Made by a program: the position numbers and the translations under genes. Below, in pieces: positions 2 through 6,426 of a stretch of 7,060 bases of DNA; the stretch's first letter is position 1; every line of letters begins with the position of its first letter. This stretch comes from Candidatus Nanoarchaeia archaeon (GTDB taxonomy: Archaea; Nanoarchaeota; Nanoarchaeia; SCGC-AAA011-G17; JAFCDX01), in contig JAQUND010000081.1 in the NCBI GenBank assembly GCA_028717785.1, positions 1 through 7,060 of the forward strand. The letters run 5' to 3'. A model generated the notes under the pieces. That model was not told where the DNA came from and did not search any database. It saw only the letters and a list, made by a program, of their open reading frames with translations.

Positions 2-109
2 AATGGAGCTAAAATAATAGGTATAAATGAATCTATTAAAACTACAGGAAATTGCATTTATTGTAATAAAAAAGCTAAATATACTGTTTATATTTCAAAA
101 ACTTATTAA
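2..109 (+). CDS. proS: Prolyl-tRNA synthetase, C-terminal end (partial)
   Basis: Only the last 35 codons and the TAA stop are present; the gene enters from the left edge. The visible peptide ends in a CIYCNKKAKY motif followed by VYISKTY. This resembles the extreme C terminus of archaeal/eukaryotic-type prolyl-tRNA synthetases, where a zinc-binding extension is followed by a (K/R)(S/T)Y ending. The CxxC pair at visible residues 18 and 21 would be the second half of the zinc site; the first pair lies outside the window. By family knowledge the enzyme charges tRNA-Pro with proline in the cytoplasm. Its stop codon overlaps the stop of the convergent transglutaminase-like gene by 4 bases. The identification rests on a short but characteristic tail. 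Confidence 0.78.
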   Translation, partial: NGAKIIGINESIKTTGNCIYCNKKAKYTVYISKTY

Positions 110-2031
110 AATAAATTTTTAAACCATGAAAGAATTTTTGCGTAAAATGGAACACCCATTACATTTGTTAAAAAAGTTTTATCTGAAGAATATTTGTAAC
201 CATTTTCATCTTCATAAGATATTATTATACTTGATTTATCTTTTGAATAAAAATATTTTCCTGGTAAAGAAATTAACATGGATTCTTCTCCACTAAATGA
301 ATCTAATTTATAAAACTCATTTCCATTTAAAGAAAATACAATATGTTTAACTGGAGCATCTGAATTTAAATTAAATTTCAAATCTACAATTCCGTTATAA
401 ACAATTAAATCTGGATATTCTAAATTGGATATTCTTAAATTTGGATCTGTTAAAGATTTAACCGTAAAGAAATCTTGATAATTTATTTTATCATTATAAG
501 CTTTTATTTCTAATTGTTTATTCCCATCTAAATTTTCAAATTTAATATTTTTTGATTCTGAAATACTTAATGTAACCATTTGACAATTATTATCAATACA
601 AACACTTAACCCATTTAGTATACTATTACCTATATTTTTAACATTACAAATTAAAGAAACAGTTTCGTAATCATAATAACTAGCTTTTTCTGGTTTACAA
701 TTAATGTTTACATTATCCGAATAAGTTAATTGTTCTATTTGTTGATATTCCTTTATTTTTTTATTTGCTTCATCTAAATTAAAAATATCATAATCTTTAG
801 AGTATTCTATTTTAGCTGATTCTAAATTTCCAAATGAATCTATAACTTCAAATATAGTTGTGTATAAATAATTTTCATTAATATCTTCGGGTATTTTTAA
901 AATCCAAAATAAACTTTTTTCTTGATTTGATTTCAATAAAACGGTTTTAATATTATCCTCTGTTAATGCTGGTGCTTTTCTAACTTTTACTTGTAAAGGA
1001 ACATAATAAGGAGCAAGATTTTCTACTTTTACACGAATAGGAACATAACTTCCAGGACCAACTTTATTAGTTAAAACTTCTAAATCCATATTAACTAAAT
1101 CTGATCTTTGTTCTGATTTAGCAACTAAATTTGTATATATATTTAATTTAGTATCTCCAAATTGAGAATTATGCATAGACCCTGATAAAGTTAAAGAAGG
1201 AGTTACAGAATCAACACTATAATCTAAAATAATATGACTTGGATCTATCCATCCATATTGTTGATATGTAACATCAAAAGGAATCCATCCATAATTAGGG
1301 AAATAAACCTCTGCCCACCCATGATTTCCCCATTTATCATCAATATTTGAATAAACAACCCCAGAAACAAATCTTGCAGGAACTCCAACTGAACGACACA
1401 TAGAAATAAATAAATTAGTTATTTCATCGCAAACACCTCTTTTATTTACAAAAACCCAACTTGATTTTTGTACTGCTTCAGCTGTTAAAGTAGATAAATT
1501 ATATTGAACATTTTTTGCAGTCCAATCAGCCAATTTGTAAACTGCGCTGTATAAATCATCTTCCCCTGAAACTAATTCATTTGCTTGGTTTTTTATATCA
1601 TCATTAAGGTCTATATACTCAGCGGGTTGGGTATAAGGCAAAAAAGTATAATTTATATTCTGTATTGGAAAAGGAATTTTTTTATCTATTTTTGGAACTT
1701 CATTTTTTACATGAATATTAGCAGTTAAACCCATTTTAACTGAATTAGAAACTTCATTCCATTGGTATATTATTTTATCGGAAGTTAATTGAACTACTGC
1801 AGTGGGATCTGAAATATAAGTTAAATTAGAAACTCTTTGCATTTCTGTTTGTATTGGATAAATTGATAATTCAGCAATTAAAGAATTAGTAGTTGGATTT
1901 TCTCCATTTGAAACTAAATTAATATTTGAATTTATTGAAAAAGCCATATCAACCCAATTGTAAGAAATAAAATCTTCAGAAGCGCAAACTAAAGGAATTA
2001 ATAATAAGATAAATAATACTATTTTTTTAAT
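106..2031 (-). CDS. Secreted transglutaminase-like protein with Ig/CARDB-like repeats, proposed AUU start
   Basis: Third gene of the minus-strand operon; 641 residues if started at the ATT codon at 2029-2031. Residues 1-18 form a type I signal peptide (KKIVLFILLLIPLVCA, probable cleavage after VCA), so the product is probably exported. A beta-rich N-terminal region is followed by a transglutaminase/papain-like core at about 160-275. It carries the catalytic triad: Cys201 in RGVCDE, His237 in GNHGWAEVYF, Asp253 in FDVTY. Three beta-sandwich segments of Ig or CARDB type seem to follow (about 313-413, 435-525, 530-623). The second has four cysteines (445, 462, 478, 483) that could form disulfides. 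The tail (627-641) is short, hydrophobic and basic, not a full membrane helix. In archaea such proteins are inferred to be cell-surface proteases or cross-linkers; the substrate is unknown. The first ATG (1947) would delete the whole signal peptide, so I reject it. The start overlaps the radical SAM gene by 13 bases. Confidence 0.8.
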   Translation of the reverse strand: MKKIVLFILLLIPLVCASEDFISYNWVDMAFSINSNINLVSNGENPTTNSLIAELSIYPIQTEMQRVSNLTYISDPTAVVQLTSDKIIYQWNEVSNSVKMGLTANIHVKNEVPKIDKKIPFPIQNINYTFLPYTQPAEYIDLNDDIKNQANELVSGEDDLYSAVYKLADWTAKNVQYNLSTLTAEAVQKSSWVFVNKRGVCDEITNLFISMCRSVGVPARFVSGVVYSNIDDKWGNHGWAEVYFPNYGWIPFDVTYQQYGWIDPSHIILDYSVDSVTPSLTLSGSMHNSQFGDTKLNIYTNLVAKSEQRSDLVNMDLEVLTNKVGPGSYVPIRVKVENLAPYYVPLQVKVRKAPALTEDNIKTVLLKSNQEKSLFWILKIPEDINENYLYTTIFEVIDSFGNLESAKIEYSKDYDIFNLDEANKKIKEYQQIEQLTYSDNVNINCKPEKASYYDYETVSLICNVKNIGNSILNGLSVCIDNNCQMVTLSISESKNIKFENLDGNKQLEIKAYNDKINYQDFFTVKSLTDPNLRISNLEYPDLIVYNGIVDLKFNLNSDAPVKHIVFSLNGNEFYKLDSFSGEESMLISLPGKYFYSKDKSSIIISYEDENGYKYSSDKTFLTNVMGVPFYAKILSWFKNLF

Positions 2032-2981
2032 TTCTCCATCACCTCTAAATATTCCAGTAATTTTTCTTTTATATTGCTTTCTATTTCTATATTTTTAAGT
2101 TTTTGTAATTGATTAACATCTGTTAGTGTACTTATAAAAGTTCTACCTGATTTTTTAACTTCTTCTTCGAATATTCTTGCTTTTTTTGAATTAAATAATT
2201 TAGTTGCTGGAAATTTAGTTATTGCATTTGAACCTGCTTTTAGTAAAGATGAAATTTCATTTACTCTATTAGCAGTTGTTCCTGTAATTATTTCTAATTT
2301 AGGAAAATTAATTCTTGTATTTGCTATCCATTTAATATATTCTTCTGTACTTGGTCCTTTTGTGTATATTGTTCCTGTTACAGGTTTTAAAGCATAAAAA
2401 GTAATTCTATCTAATTTATGTTCTTTTATAAAATCAAATAATAAATCCATATCAGAATCTTTTTCTCCTAATCCTATAACAATAGTTGCACTTTTCTTTA
2501 ATCCTTTTGCTGATTTTAACATATCTTTGTATTTATCTAATGGTTTATTAGGACAAATTTTTTCATGTAATTCTGGATTAATAGTTTCTATAGAAGCTAC
2601 AATTCCTTCTGTATATGGTTTTAGTAATTCAAAATCTTCTTGTTTTAAAACTCCTAAATTTAACCACAATTTATCTTGATATATTTCAGAAACTTTCTTT
2701 GTTATTTCAACTAATTTTTCTATTGGATAAATATTATAACCGCCTGTTAAGAATTCAATTCTCCAATTCAAATGTTTAGCTAGTAATGCTTCAACATATA
2801 TTGATTTAGGTGTTCTTCTTGCATTTTCTATACTTTTAATATTATTTTTTATTGTAGATCTATAACAGAATTTACAAGTTCCTATATCACAATACCAACT
2901 AATAAAAATACACTTTCCAAACCAAGTTGTATTTGGAAAATTTTTGTTATAGACTTCGTTTGCTTGTTCTAAAATATTCAT
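2019..2981 (-). CDS. Radical SAM enzyme, biotin-synthase-like barrel with CX4CX2C cluster motif
   Basis: A 320-residue protein. C31, C36 and C39 (CDIGTCKFC) should bind the 4Fe-4S cluster that cleaves S-adenosylmethionine. The spacing is CX4CX2C, not the usual CX3CX2C, and the translation is unambiguous. FLTGGYN (about 77-83) corresponds to the SAM-binding GGE-type strand. NLGVLKQEDFELLK, the IET segment after it, VIGLGEKDSD (about 168-177) and ALKPVTGT (about 197-204) follow the order seen in BioB/HydE/HmdB-type barrels. A C-terminal region (about 230-285) may match the BATS-like end of that group. I infer an archaeal biotin-synthase-related radical SAM protein of unknown substrate. No biotin or hydrogenase maturation genes are in view, so biotin synthesis is not implied. 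It starts inside the stop of the DHH gene (ATGA overlap), which points to translational coupling, and its 3' end carries the ribosome-binding site for the next gene. Confidence 0.82.
   Translation of the reverse strand: MNILEQANEVYNKNFPNTTWFGKCIFISWYCDIGTCKFCYRSTIKNNIKSIENARRTPKSIYVEALLAKHLNWRIEFLTGGYNIYPIEKLVEITKKVSEIYQDKLWLNLGVLKQEDFELLKPYTEGIVASIETINPELHEKICPNKPLDKYKDMLKSAKGLKKSATIVIGLGEKDSDMDLLFDFIKEHKLDRITFYALKPVTGTIYTKGPSTEEYIKWIANTRINFPKLEIITGTTANRVNEISSLLKAGSNAITKFPATKLFNSKKARIFEEEVKKSGRTFISTLTDVNQLQKLKNIEIESNIKEKLLEYLEVMEKLKK
2038..2045 (-). promoter_or_regulatory. Strong Shine-Dalgarno site for the transglutaminase-like gene
   Basis: Read on the minus strand this is GAGGTGAT, an 8-base perfect complement to the usual archaeal 16S rRNA 3' end (AUCACCUC). 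Six bases separate it from the ATT codon at 2031. It is embedded in the last codons of the radical SAM gene (GAG GTG ATG GAG). Those two GAG codons are the only GAG among that gene's 29 glutamates, and the GTG is the only GTG among its 12 valines. The codon choice therefore suggests selection for the site itself. It abuts the out-of-frame ATG at 2039 and so cannot serve that one. Confidence 0.7.
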
Positions 2982-4009
2982 TCTATCTGGTTTTTTATAT
3001 TATCTATAAAAGTCTGAAAATCATCTTTTGAAACATTACCACCTGCAGCATGATCATGACCACCACCATAACCTTTTACATTAATTAAAGCTTTTTCTAT
3101 TATTGGAGGTAGTATTAATTTAGCAGACCTAAAACTTAATTTTACTTCATCTCCCTTTTCTCTACCAATAATAATTAATTTGTCTGGATTTTTATATAAT
3201 AATTCATTAGATAATTCTGCAGTAAAACTCATTTTAACACTTGGATATAAAAATAATAAAATCTTTTTACTTATTACTGCTTTTTGTGCTTGTTGTAATA
3301 ATTCATCATATTGTTTCTTAACTCTTAAATATCTATTATACAAGAATTTTCCTTTTGAAGTTGTTTGATCTAGTATTTCGTAGGGATCTTTTAATTTTAA
3401 AATCACAGCTATATTTTTTCTGATATCTAAAGATTTACCTTTTAATAAAAAGGCAAATACTCTAACTAACTCTCCAAATCTTGATTCAAATAAAATTTTA
3501 TCTGGAGTTTTTTGTTTATCTATTAAATTGGGATAATTTTTCTTAAATTCTTCTAAAAAGTCGGGAACATACCAATCAGCTACAGAACCAATTGCAGCTA
3601 ACCACATTAATTCTTTATTTTTGTAAATATTATAAACCCAGTATGAAGCAGGAGAATTATCTTTTTCATCTTCTTGTCTTGGATTGTAATAATGTACACC
3701 CTTACGTTCAACTAAAGGATGATGATCCAGCCATATAATTGGAACATGAATTTGATCTATAAAATCTTGACTTATTATTGGTTTATCAAAAACAAAGATC
3801 ATATCAGGACTAATTTCTTCTACTTTTTTTAAGTATAATTCATCTAAAACAGGAGAACTTTTAATGATAATTCCTTTAGCATGTTCCTTCATTTTTTTAA
3901 AGATTAAATAAGAACATAAACCATCTGGGTCATCATCATATAAAACTAGAGGATTTTCGGACTTTTCTATGTAATCTCTTATCTCTTTAAGCTTCTTCTC
4001 TGAAATCAT
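2978..4009 (-). CDS. DHH/DHHA1 family phosphoesterase (RecJ-like)
   Basis: First gene of the minus-strand operon; 343 residues. The DHH-superfamily motifs appear in order: YDDDPDG (24-30, motif I), Asp75 in FVFDKP (motif II), DHH at 95-97 in WLDHHP (motif III), and Asp145 in GSVADW (motif IV). These residues bind the two metal ions. The C-terminal DHHA1 substrate-binding domain ends in GYGGGHDHAAGG (about 313-324). Family members hydrolyse phosphodiester bonds in single-stranded nucleic acids, short oligonucleotides or cyclic dinucleotides. The sequence alone does not show which. It is shorter than bacterial RecJ and lacks an OB-fold region, closer to archaeal RecJ-like or nanoRNase-type proteins. 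The ATG at 4009 sits about 26 bp from the shared TATA box, which supports this start and a leaderless transcript. The gene ends in an ATGA overlap with the radical SAM gene. Confidence 0.88.
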   Translation of the reverse strand: MISEKKLKEIRDYIEKSENPLVLYDDDPDGLCSYLIFKKMKEHAKGIIIKSSPVLDELYLKKVEEISPDMIFVFDKPIISQDFIDQIHVPIIWLDHHPLVERKGVHYYNPRQEDEKDNSPASYWVYNIYKNKELMWLAAIGSVADWYVPDFLEEFKKNYPNLIDKQKTPDKILFESRFGELVRVFAFLLKGKSLDIRKNIAVILKLKDPYEILDQTTSKGKFLYNRYLRVKKQYDELLQQAQKAVISKKILLFLYPSVKMSFTAELSNELLYKNPDKLIIIGREKGDEVKLSFRSAKLILPPIIEKALINVKGYGGGHDHAAGGNVSKDDFQTFIDNIKNQIE

Positions 4010-5371: not shown

Positions 5372-6085
5372 ATGAGTATTTTCGAAGGTATAAGGAATTG
5401 GTTTAGCACTAATAAATATGAAACCACTATAAATAATTTAGAAGCAATTGATACAGAAATAGAATTTTTATTAAATGGGATTAATGAAGATCAACAAAAT
5501 AAATATAAAATTATTAAAGAATTAGAAACTTCTGATGGATTGATTGGACAATTAATTACTAGATTTAATAAAATTAATGATATCGAATTAGAAAAATTAA
5601 AAAATAAAAATCCTGAATTAACCCAAAAAATAACAGCAGGTATTTCTAATTTAACTATTTTAAAAAAGAAGATATATAACACACTTAAAAAAGAAAAATT
5701 AACTGAACAAGATAAAAAATCAATTTTAATGTCTTTAGATTTTAGTAAAAATATTTTAATTCAACTAAAAGAAAATATAACTCAATTGTTTGCATTAAAA
5801 AGAAGGGAATTTGATTTTAGTAAGGCAATAATTTATCCAAAACCCGATTATCCTATGAAAACTGCAGACGGAATTCCAATAAGTAAAATTATAAAATTAG
5901 CGAATGGATTTGGATTTACAGTTAGAAAAGGAACTAATCATCTTTTTGAAATTGATTTTAAGGATAGAAAACAACCTTGTGCACTTGCAAAAAATACTGT
6001 TTTTGGTACAAATCCCATTAGAAGTTTTACACAAAATACATATAGATCAAAACTAGATATATATGAATTATTAAAAGCAATGTAA
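5372..6085 (+). CDS. Coiled-coil protein with a divergent HicA-like C-terminal domain
   Basis: A 237-residue protein. Residues 1-145 are highly charged and predicted helical or coiled coil. The C-terminal 70 residues (about 168-235) read GIPISKIIKLANGFGF, RKGTNHLFEI and GTNPIRSFTQNT. This order resembles HicA/YcfA: a leading helix that ends in a glycine turn, the GSHH-like motif with its catalytic-type His (His190 here), and the final helix after a G-x-x-x-RS motif. HicA proteins are small toxins with a double-stranded-RNA-binding fold that cleave mRNA. Here the domain is fused to a long helical region and no HicB-type antitoxin gene is adjacent. An RNA-binding or other non-toxin role is as likely. 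It is the last gene of the histone transcript, and its stop abuts the stop of a convergent gene. The domain call is by eye and tentative. Confidence 0.6.
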   Translation: MSIFEGIRNWFSTNKYETTINNLEAIDTEIEFLLNGINEDQQNKYKIIKELETSDGLIGQLITRFNKINDIELEKLKNKNPELTQKITAGISNLTILKKKIYNTLKKEKLTEQDKKSILMSLDFSKNILIQLKENITQLFALKRREFDFSKAIIYPKPDYPMKTADGIPISKIIKLANGFGFTVRKGTNHLFEIDFKDRKQPCALAKNTVFGTNPIRSFTQNTYRSKLDIYELLKAM

Positions 6086-6406
6086 TTAATTTAAAGAATT
6101 TTCTAATTTGAAATTATTAAATTTATAAAATTCTCTTGTTCTTATATTAGAAAATGGTAATAATTGATCAAGAGAAACAGTCTTTGTTTTAGAGTCTTCA
6201 TAAAATTGTATTGCTTTTACTCTTCTTTTTGGATTAGGAGTAATAATTACTTCATCCTGAATATATTTTGCTATATTAGTAAGTGCTTCATAAGTTATTC
6301 TTTTTATCAAACGTTTATCTTTCTGGAATAAATAATAAGGGGTATCCTGAATTGTAGATAAAAGTTTTCTTCTTTCTAATTGATCATATAAACTATCTAA
6401 TTTCAT
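6086..6406 (-). CDS. Conserved-looking hypothetical protein, 106 residues
   Basis: A protein I cannot assign. The N-terminal part (MKLDSLYDQLERRKLLSTIQ) looks helical. A basic central segment (QKDKRLIKRITYEALTNIAKYIQDE) follows, then a probable beta-rich part containing PKRRVKAIQFYEDSKTKTVS and a Phe/Arg/Asn-rich end. It has no membrane helix, signal peptide or cysteine. I chose the ATG at 6406 over the upstream in-frame ATG at 6418 because the TATA box at 6427-6436 lies about 26 bp from 6406 but only about 13 bp from 6418. The four extra residues (MYII) would not be in a leaderless transcript. Its TAA directly abuts the stop of the convergent HicA-like gene, with no intergenic base. Confidence 0.65.
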   Translation of the reverse strand: MKLDSLYDQLERRKLLSTIQDTPYYLFQKDKRLIKRITYEALTNIAKYIQDEVIITPNPKRRVKAIQFYEDSKTKTVSLDQLLPFSNIRTREFYKFNNFKLENSLN

Positions 6407-6426
6407 AATTATATACATTAGATATT

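Follow-up and report, generated by a model that had tools for sequence, protein, structure and literature searches.

In Escherichia coli the infC gene encodes IF3 and is in turn regulated by it. Like pcnB of the same bacterium this gene starts with AUU (cited in PMC5472188 and PMC13009471), and near-cognate starts have been described in Staphylococcus aureus for infC (AUA), ccpN (AUA), cvfC1 (AUU) and citZ (AUA), with an extended Shine-Dalgarno (SD) site for infC, ccpN and cvfC1 and with conservation for ccpN and cvfC1; they were shown by retapamulin-trapped ribosomes and three of them also by reporters (PMC13009471). AUU and AUA starts behind extended SDs are already known from bacteria. The sigR gene of Streptomyces has a GTC start with an extensive ribosome-binding site (AGGAGGTG), the codon being GTC in 32 of 34 species and GTT in 2 (PMC5472188). 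GUG and UUG starts are offset by stronger SDs (PMC5622118). For archaea, a review of initiation names AUG, GUG and UUG as start codons (PMC7531240), and an ATT start with a ribosome-binding site at a plausible distance has been inferred for atubA, a tubulin gene of Asgard archaea (Kariarchaeaceae; PMC13394414). We found no systematic report of AUH (AUU, AUC or AUA) starts in archaea in the open-access literature searched, where this Asgard ATT was the one case.

The window, i.e. the whole stretch of 7,060 nucleotides of a small-genome archaeon analysed here, carries on its minus strand, in this order, genes for a DHH/DHHA1 phosphoesterase (2978..4009), a radical SAM protein (PF04055; 2019..2981), these two overlapping by 4 nt, and a transglutaminase-like secreted protein (106..2031; PF01841 Transglut_core, E 3.4e-28). 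The last gene has 641 codons when it is read from an ATT codon at 2029..2031, and we are largely confident, on the basis of the sequence comparisons below, that it is translated from this AUU and is one case of a recurrent AUH class in DPANN archaea. Elsewhere in the window, two further predicted proteins, one of 237 aa (5372-6085, plus strand) and one of 110 aa (6086-6418, minus strand), have no Pfam match.

No ATG, GTG or TTG is present in the transglutaminase frame, which is open from 2094, between the upstream stop and the ATG at 1945..1947, 28 codons into the protein. The signal peptide IKKIVLFILLLIPLVCA (1981..2031, Met replacing Ile1), whose extent was judged by eye from the translation and which homologues resemble at the same place, is encoded upstream of this first canonical start, which a standard caller has chosen (P0002, 613 aa). 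Around the proposed start the minus strand reads ...TTTAGAGGTGATGGAGAA-ATT-AAAAAAATAGTATTA..., in which 6 bases separate the SD GAGGTGAT (2038..2045) from the ATT (8 nt when counted from GGTG), so that the first-pass annotation was right in placing an ATT 6 bases after an SD in a region without canonical starts. Its further claim of a perfect complement to the archaeal anti-SD also holds: GAGGTGAT is an 8-base match, exactly complementary to the 16S 3' end in two related genomes, G014 and G005, where the anti-SD GGATCACCTCCT is intact (it was not found in the examined part of a third genome, G001), and the site is kept in relatives. The window has two copies of GAGGTG on its minus strand, at 2045 and, inside the coding region, at 1439, and none on the plus strand; the other genes had been described as apparently leaderless or without a clear SD, and a 6-base SD is indeed absent from the 30 bases before each of the nine other listed start positions in the window (the ribosomal L15e gene begins outside it). 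The SD is carried by the final codons of the radical SAM gene (LEVMEKLKK-stop), which overlaps the ATT frame by 13 nt. This gene has 27 GAA and 2 GAG codons (codons 313 and 316) for its 29 Glu and a single GTG (codon 314) among its 12 Val codons; the idea that the SD is written with both GAG codons and the GTG is correct as to the counts but only partly as to the positions, because only the first GAG lies inside the SD and the second is in the spacer.

When compared with the systems as they are described in the sources cited above, the S. aureus set shares the third-position near-cognate start codons, but it is bacterial and works with IF3, and its initiation has been shown by experiment, whereas the DPANN case is known from sequence. 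E. coli infC and pcnB have, as in the window, an AUU start in a chromosomal gene; infC is its own regulator, whereas the DPANN AUH candidates encode a transglutaminase-like protein and metabolic enzymes, and autoregulation of the infC type, which requires the fidelity factor to be the gene's own product, does not apply to the transglutaminase-like product. Streptomyces sigR is similar in combining a strong ribosome-binding site with a conserved noncanonical start and differs in that the codon is GTC and not AUH and in that repression by IF3 has been shown experimentally (PMC5472188). The Asgard atubA start is, like that of the window, an archaeal ATT inferred from sequence together with a ribosome-binding site, but it concerns one gene in one lineage, whereas the DPANN candidates belong to several gene families in many genomes. 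In GUG and UUG genes a weak codon is likewise combined with a strong SD, but the survey of such genes found AUU to be nearly absent, one of 61,358 ancestral AUG codons having changed to AUU (PMC5622118). A recurrent, conserved, multi-gene AUH class in DPANN archaea, as the present data suggest, thus appears to be new with respect to the open-access literature searched.

A protein search gave 1393 relatives at E <= 0.001, and among the 120 of these that were listed, P0002, P0004 and P0006 have an internal Met as their annotated start, and the annotated start of P0003 (77% identity) falls inside the signal peptide; in P0005 and P0104 the SD has been read as RGD ahead of an Ile codon (RGDEKIKK, RGDVEIKK). 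The N termini of homologues are signal-peptide-like at the same place, with a motif EDF.SY.W..M in the upstream stretch. At the DNA level, where the gene was found in 88 of 103 genomes of the same order, a pattern search gave 235 relatives confirmed in genome contigs, of which the best 80 were kept, and 36 further 5' ends chosen as judged new were added, four of them proving to be repeats. In the closest relative among those fetched, L001 (63% identity), the SD, spacer and ATT are identical to those of the window (GAGGTGATGGAGAA-ATT), and the A7 run that follows in the window is broken by a G. GAGGTG is followed by ATT in L016 (GAGGTGATGGGGAG-ATT) and L031 (GAGGTGAACTGGCT-ATT), by ATC in L023 (GAGGTGATGAAACG-ATC), L024 (GAGGTGATGGAGAA-ATC), L026 (GAGGTGTGATAAT-ATC) and L027 (GAGGTGATGAGGAA-ATC), and by ATA in L007 (GAGGTGATTAGAA-ATA) and L029 (GAGGTGGTAATTT-ATA); L174 reads GGGGTGATATGAT-ATT. 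A more distant member of the window's family of genomes, L002 (genome G013), starts with ATG and has no SD. The proposal of an AUU start behind a strong SD for a secreted protein is therefore supported by homologues, in which the non-AUG codon and the SD are conserved while the neighbouring flanks differ, and L001 has neither an ATG nor an indel that would speak against it.

The AUH start overlaps an upstream frame of 315-331 codons by the same 13 nt in L001, L016, L023, L024 and L027. Translational coupling is not needed, because six other loci (L007, L025, L026, L029, L031 and L033) have an SD and AUH without an overlapping long upstream frame, and coupling by overlap is accordingly not common to every case; the window and the five loci with the overlap may benefit from coupling to the radical SAM gene. 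A restart after the upstream UAG, which had been suggested for the window, is possible there in view of the 13-nt overlap but is not required, as the six loci indicate. In L003 the DHH phosphoesterase gene lies directly before the transglutaminase gene, its 347-codon frame ending 4 nt before the ATA, and in the window the radical SAM gene lies between the two.

We next counted start codons. Of the 115 rows, L032 and L041 were dropped because they have no N terminus and L144, L149, L168 and L175 because they repeat L006, L010, L072 and L060, which left 111 distinct 5' ends with the window counted among them. When ATG, GTG or TTG was searched in the 14 residues that precede the hydrophobic core, the SD being ignored, 96 ends had ATG, 4 had GTG only (L003, L025 and L033, with the GTG inside the SD, and L165, with GTG at normal spacing) and 11 had no canonical start: the window, L001, L007, L016, L023, L024, L026, L027, L029, L031 and L174. 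The codon behind the SD was ATT, ATC or ATA in all of these 11. A 6-base SD was present near the start in 15 of 15 non-ATG ends versus none of the 96 ATG ends, among which several show 4- or 5-base matches and L152, with the 6-base motif 71 nt before the core, was left out of the SD count; the Fisher p of 7e-19 for this link is overstated because the rows are related. SDs were longer in 10 AUH transglutaminases than in 21 SD-led ATG genes (median 8 versus 6, p 0.003; the 10 are homologues and not independent), and their spacing was 7-8 nt.

A quick tree was made from 105 of 117 rows, leaving out duplicates, L032, L041, rows shorter than 400 residues (including L174, an AUH case) and, without good reason, L057 and L066 (both ATG). 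For the start-codon count L003, L025, L033 and L165 were excluded, and on the resulting 101 rows, 10 of them AUH, the strict AUH label requires at least 9 changes, so that the AUH start, while conserved across species, has also been gained or lost often. Seven of seven independent pairs on supported branches of this tree agreed with SD presence (p 0.016), the SD label being taken from the start search, where it coincides with the start label.

Frames of at least 150 codons opening beside a 6-base SD were collected from the nearly complete genomes G014 (803,636 bases) and G005 (614,642 bases) and from 216,927 bases of G001. Of 96 entries, 82 had a canonical start, which rules out AUH as a rule for SD-led genes, and 14 had none, corresponding to 13 frames because one G005 frame with two SD sites was counted twice. 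AUH stood 4-9 nt after GGTG in 10 of the 13, and in 7 of 10 after removal of three transglutaminases, as compared with a background of 0.15-0.20 from codons further down the same frames (P about 1e-6 to 2e-5 and 1e-4 to 9e-4, respectively). Three sets of scrambled-motif controls in the same genomes gave 2/7, 2/7 and 0/4 (4/18 when pooled; Fisher 0.004 for 10/13 and 0.02 for 7/10). Two of the 10 AUH frames have an alternative GTG inside the SD, an ATG follows further on in each of the three frames that lack AUH, and the entries at G014 C1 98549 and G005 C1 98473 are weak, the latter having later Met codons. A raw count of GAGGTG-N(5-8)-ATH, which matched in 14 of 14 genomes, showed no excess, a reversed control being as frequent or more so in most. 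In loci from the transglutaminase search, which are not independent of that gene, 18 of 21 such frames had AUH, 3 of them with GTG in the SD, and the remaining three (L063, L068 and L079) had neither a canonical start nor AUH; ACG is at the expected place in the SD-led frames at L068 minus 8778 and L079 minus 4820. We also observed on the minus strand of G014, the genome of L003, three near-identical leaders (C1 near 509188 and 305466, and one on C2) reading GAGGT-N-CCTCAGATT..TTCTGAGATATTTAAAATG or similar directly before ATG, with two nested inverted repeats; two scrambled controls gave 0, as did G005 and the examined part of G001, and the leaders are possibly an operator or RNA leader.

The genes collected in this manner indicate that AUH behind a strong SD recurs and is not a single oddity. 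In an acyl-CoA synthetase (ADP-forming type, PF13607/PF13380) the candidate start is ATT in L003, ATA or ATC in L001 (genome G001), and ATA in G015, where an ATG also overlaps the SD; the third residue of the L003 protein is matched in alignments by residue 2 in 2csu_A and by residue 4 in 4xyl_A, and the other 27 of 30 loci have ATG, GTG or TTG available, some behind an SD. A conserved family without a Pfam match, present in 94 of 103 genomes, has ATA in G001, ATT in G015 and ATA in G014 behind an SD, with a stop directly before the AUH codon in G001 and G015, and in G013 an ATG 1 nt and the aligned ATA 7 nt after GGTG; all four genomes can thus start at AUH, and G013 can also start at ATG. 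The RNase HII gene of L044 reads AGGTGATATAA-ATA with a stop directly before the ATA, and because residues 2 and 3 of its product match the same positions in the solved archaeal enzymes 1eke_A and 1uax_A when aligned, Ile1 stands at the place of Met1. ATA lies behind GAGGTG in the M42 peptidase genes of L042, L049 and L059, the last having a TTG seven codons on, and ATA is also the candidate in a molybdopterin oxidoreductase gene of G001 (L089). The AUH candidates with a GTG inside the SD are L003, L025, L033, L042, L049 and L089.

Other explanations of the window's ATT must be weighed against these data. The protein might start at ATG 1947 or another internal codon, the upstream part being untranslated and the product lacking a signal peptide; ATG 1947 comes first among the canonical starts and was chosen by the caller for P0002, and P0004 and P0006 likewise begin internally. 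We regard this as very unlikely, because the upstream stretch keeps its signal-peptide character and the EDF.SY.W..M motif in relatives, homologues with an ATG begin at the signal peptide, and the motif positions in the window place no SD before ATG 1947. The A7 run at 2028-2022 invites the suspicion of a homopolymer indel, since one extra A would bring the ATG at 2039-2037 into frame and open a plausible signal peptide, MEKLKKIVLFILLL. This is highly unlikely, because that ATG overlaps the SD, L007, L026, L029 and L031 have no such ATG, and in L001 and L016 the run is broken (AAAAAGTTA, AAGAAATTA) and there is still no canonical start. The same run could be the site of a programmed -1 frameshift or slippage on A_AAA_AAA, by which the transglutaminase frame would be joined to the radical SAM frame or to a start at ATG 2039, with the SD as stimulator. 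An SD-like site does lie about 10 nt before the A run and stop, as in the frameshifting of bacterial dnaX, but L001, L016 and L023 lack an intact slippery run, no long upstream frame covers the start in L007, L025, L026, L029, L031 and L033, and a signal peptide joined to a radical SAM enzyme would make little sense, which makes this reading extremely unlikely. Neither indel nor slippage explains the window's ATT, because L001 keeps the SD, spacer and ATT despite its broken run.

A different question is whether the AUH starts are regulatory, i.e. whether weak codons are under selection and aIF1 and SD strength tune output, as in the case of infC and IF3 in bacteria. This is conceivable but rather doubtful. 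SD-led members of the transglutaminase family use AUH or GTG and in 0 of 15 cases ATG, whereas other SD-led genes do use ATG; aIF1 acts against a non-AUG mRNA in Sulfolobus in vitro (PMC6237735), and in S. aureus the activity of AUU and AUA starts is about 10-30% of that of AUG (PMC13009471). On the other hand, the genes concerned are not initiation factors, the at least 9 label changes on the tree could also have arisen by drift in weakly expressed genes, and the 13 of 30 aIF1 loci recovered by pattern showed no AUH start, each having ATG or TTG available. Loss of aIF1 is ruled out as the cause of AUH starts, its gene being found in 97 of 103 genomes. We mention only tentatively that AUU, AUC and AUA might be a standing, selected start class in this DPANN order, working behind extended SDs, used in orthologous genes (transglutaminase-like protein, acyl-CoA synthetase, RNase HII, M42 peptidase and the unnamed family) and tuned by aIF1 as an archaeal counterpart of infC.

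For the preferred reading, a start at the AUU of 2031-2029, the sequences themselves show the arrangement, that it is conserved and enriched, and that it goes together with the SD. We infer from them that GAGGUGAU would pair with the 16S anti-SD and position the small ribosomal subunit at the AUU, and that Met-tRNAi would then be accepted on a codon mismatched at the third base only, so that the protein would begin with Met and its signal peptide would be complete; the yield is presumably below that of AUG. Because all three AUH codons occur, a third-base mismatch by Met-tRNAi seems a better fit than a special tRNA that reads just one of them, and AUU, AUC and AUA would act as starts behind strong SDs in several genes of these DPANN archaea. 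Callers limited to AUG, GUG and UUG shorten AUH-started proteins, and in the window the whole signal peptide is lost; the AUH set shows annotators where to look. Furthermore, a conserved AUH set would offer natural substrates for studying how SD strength and aIF1 determine archaeal start-codon fidelity.
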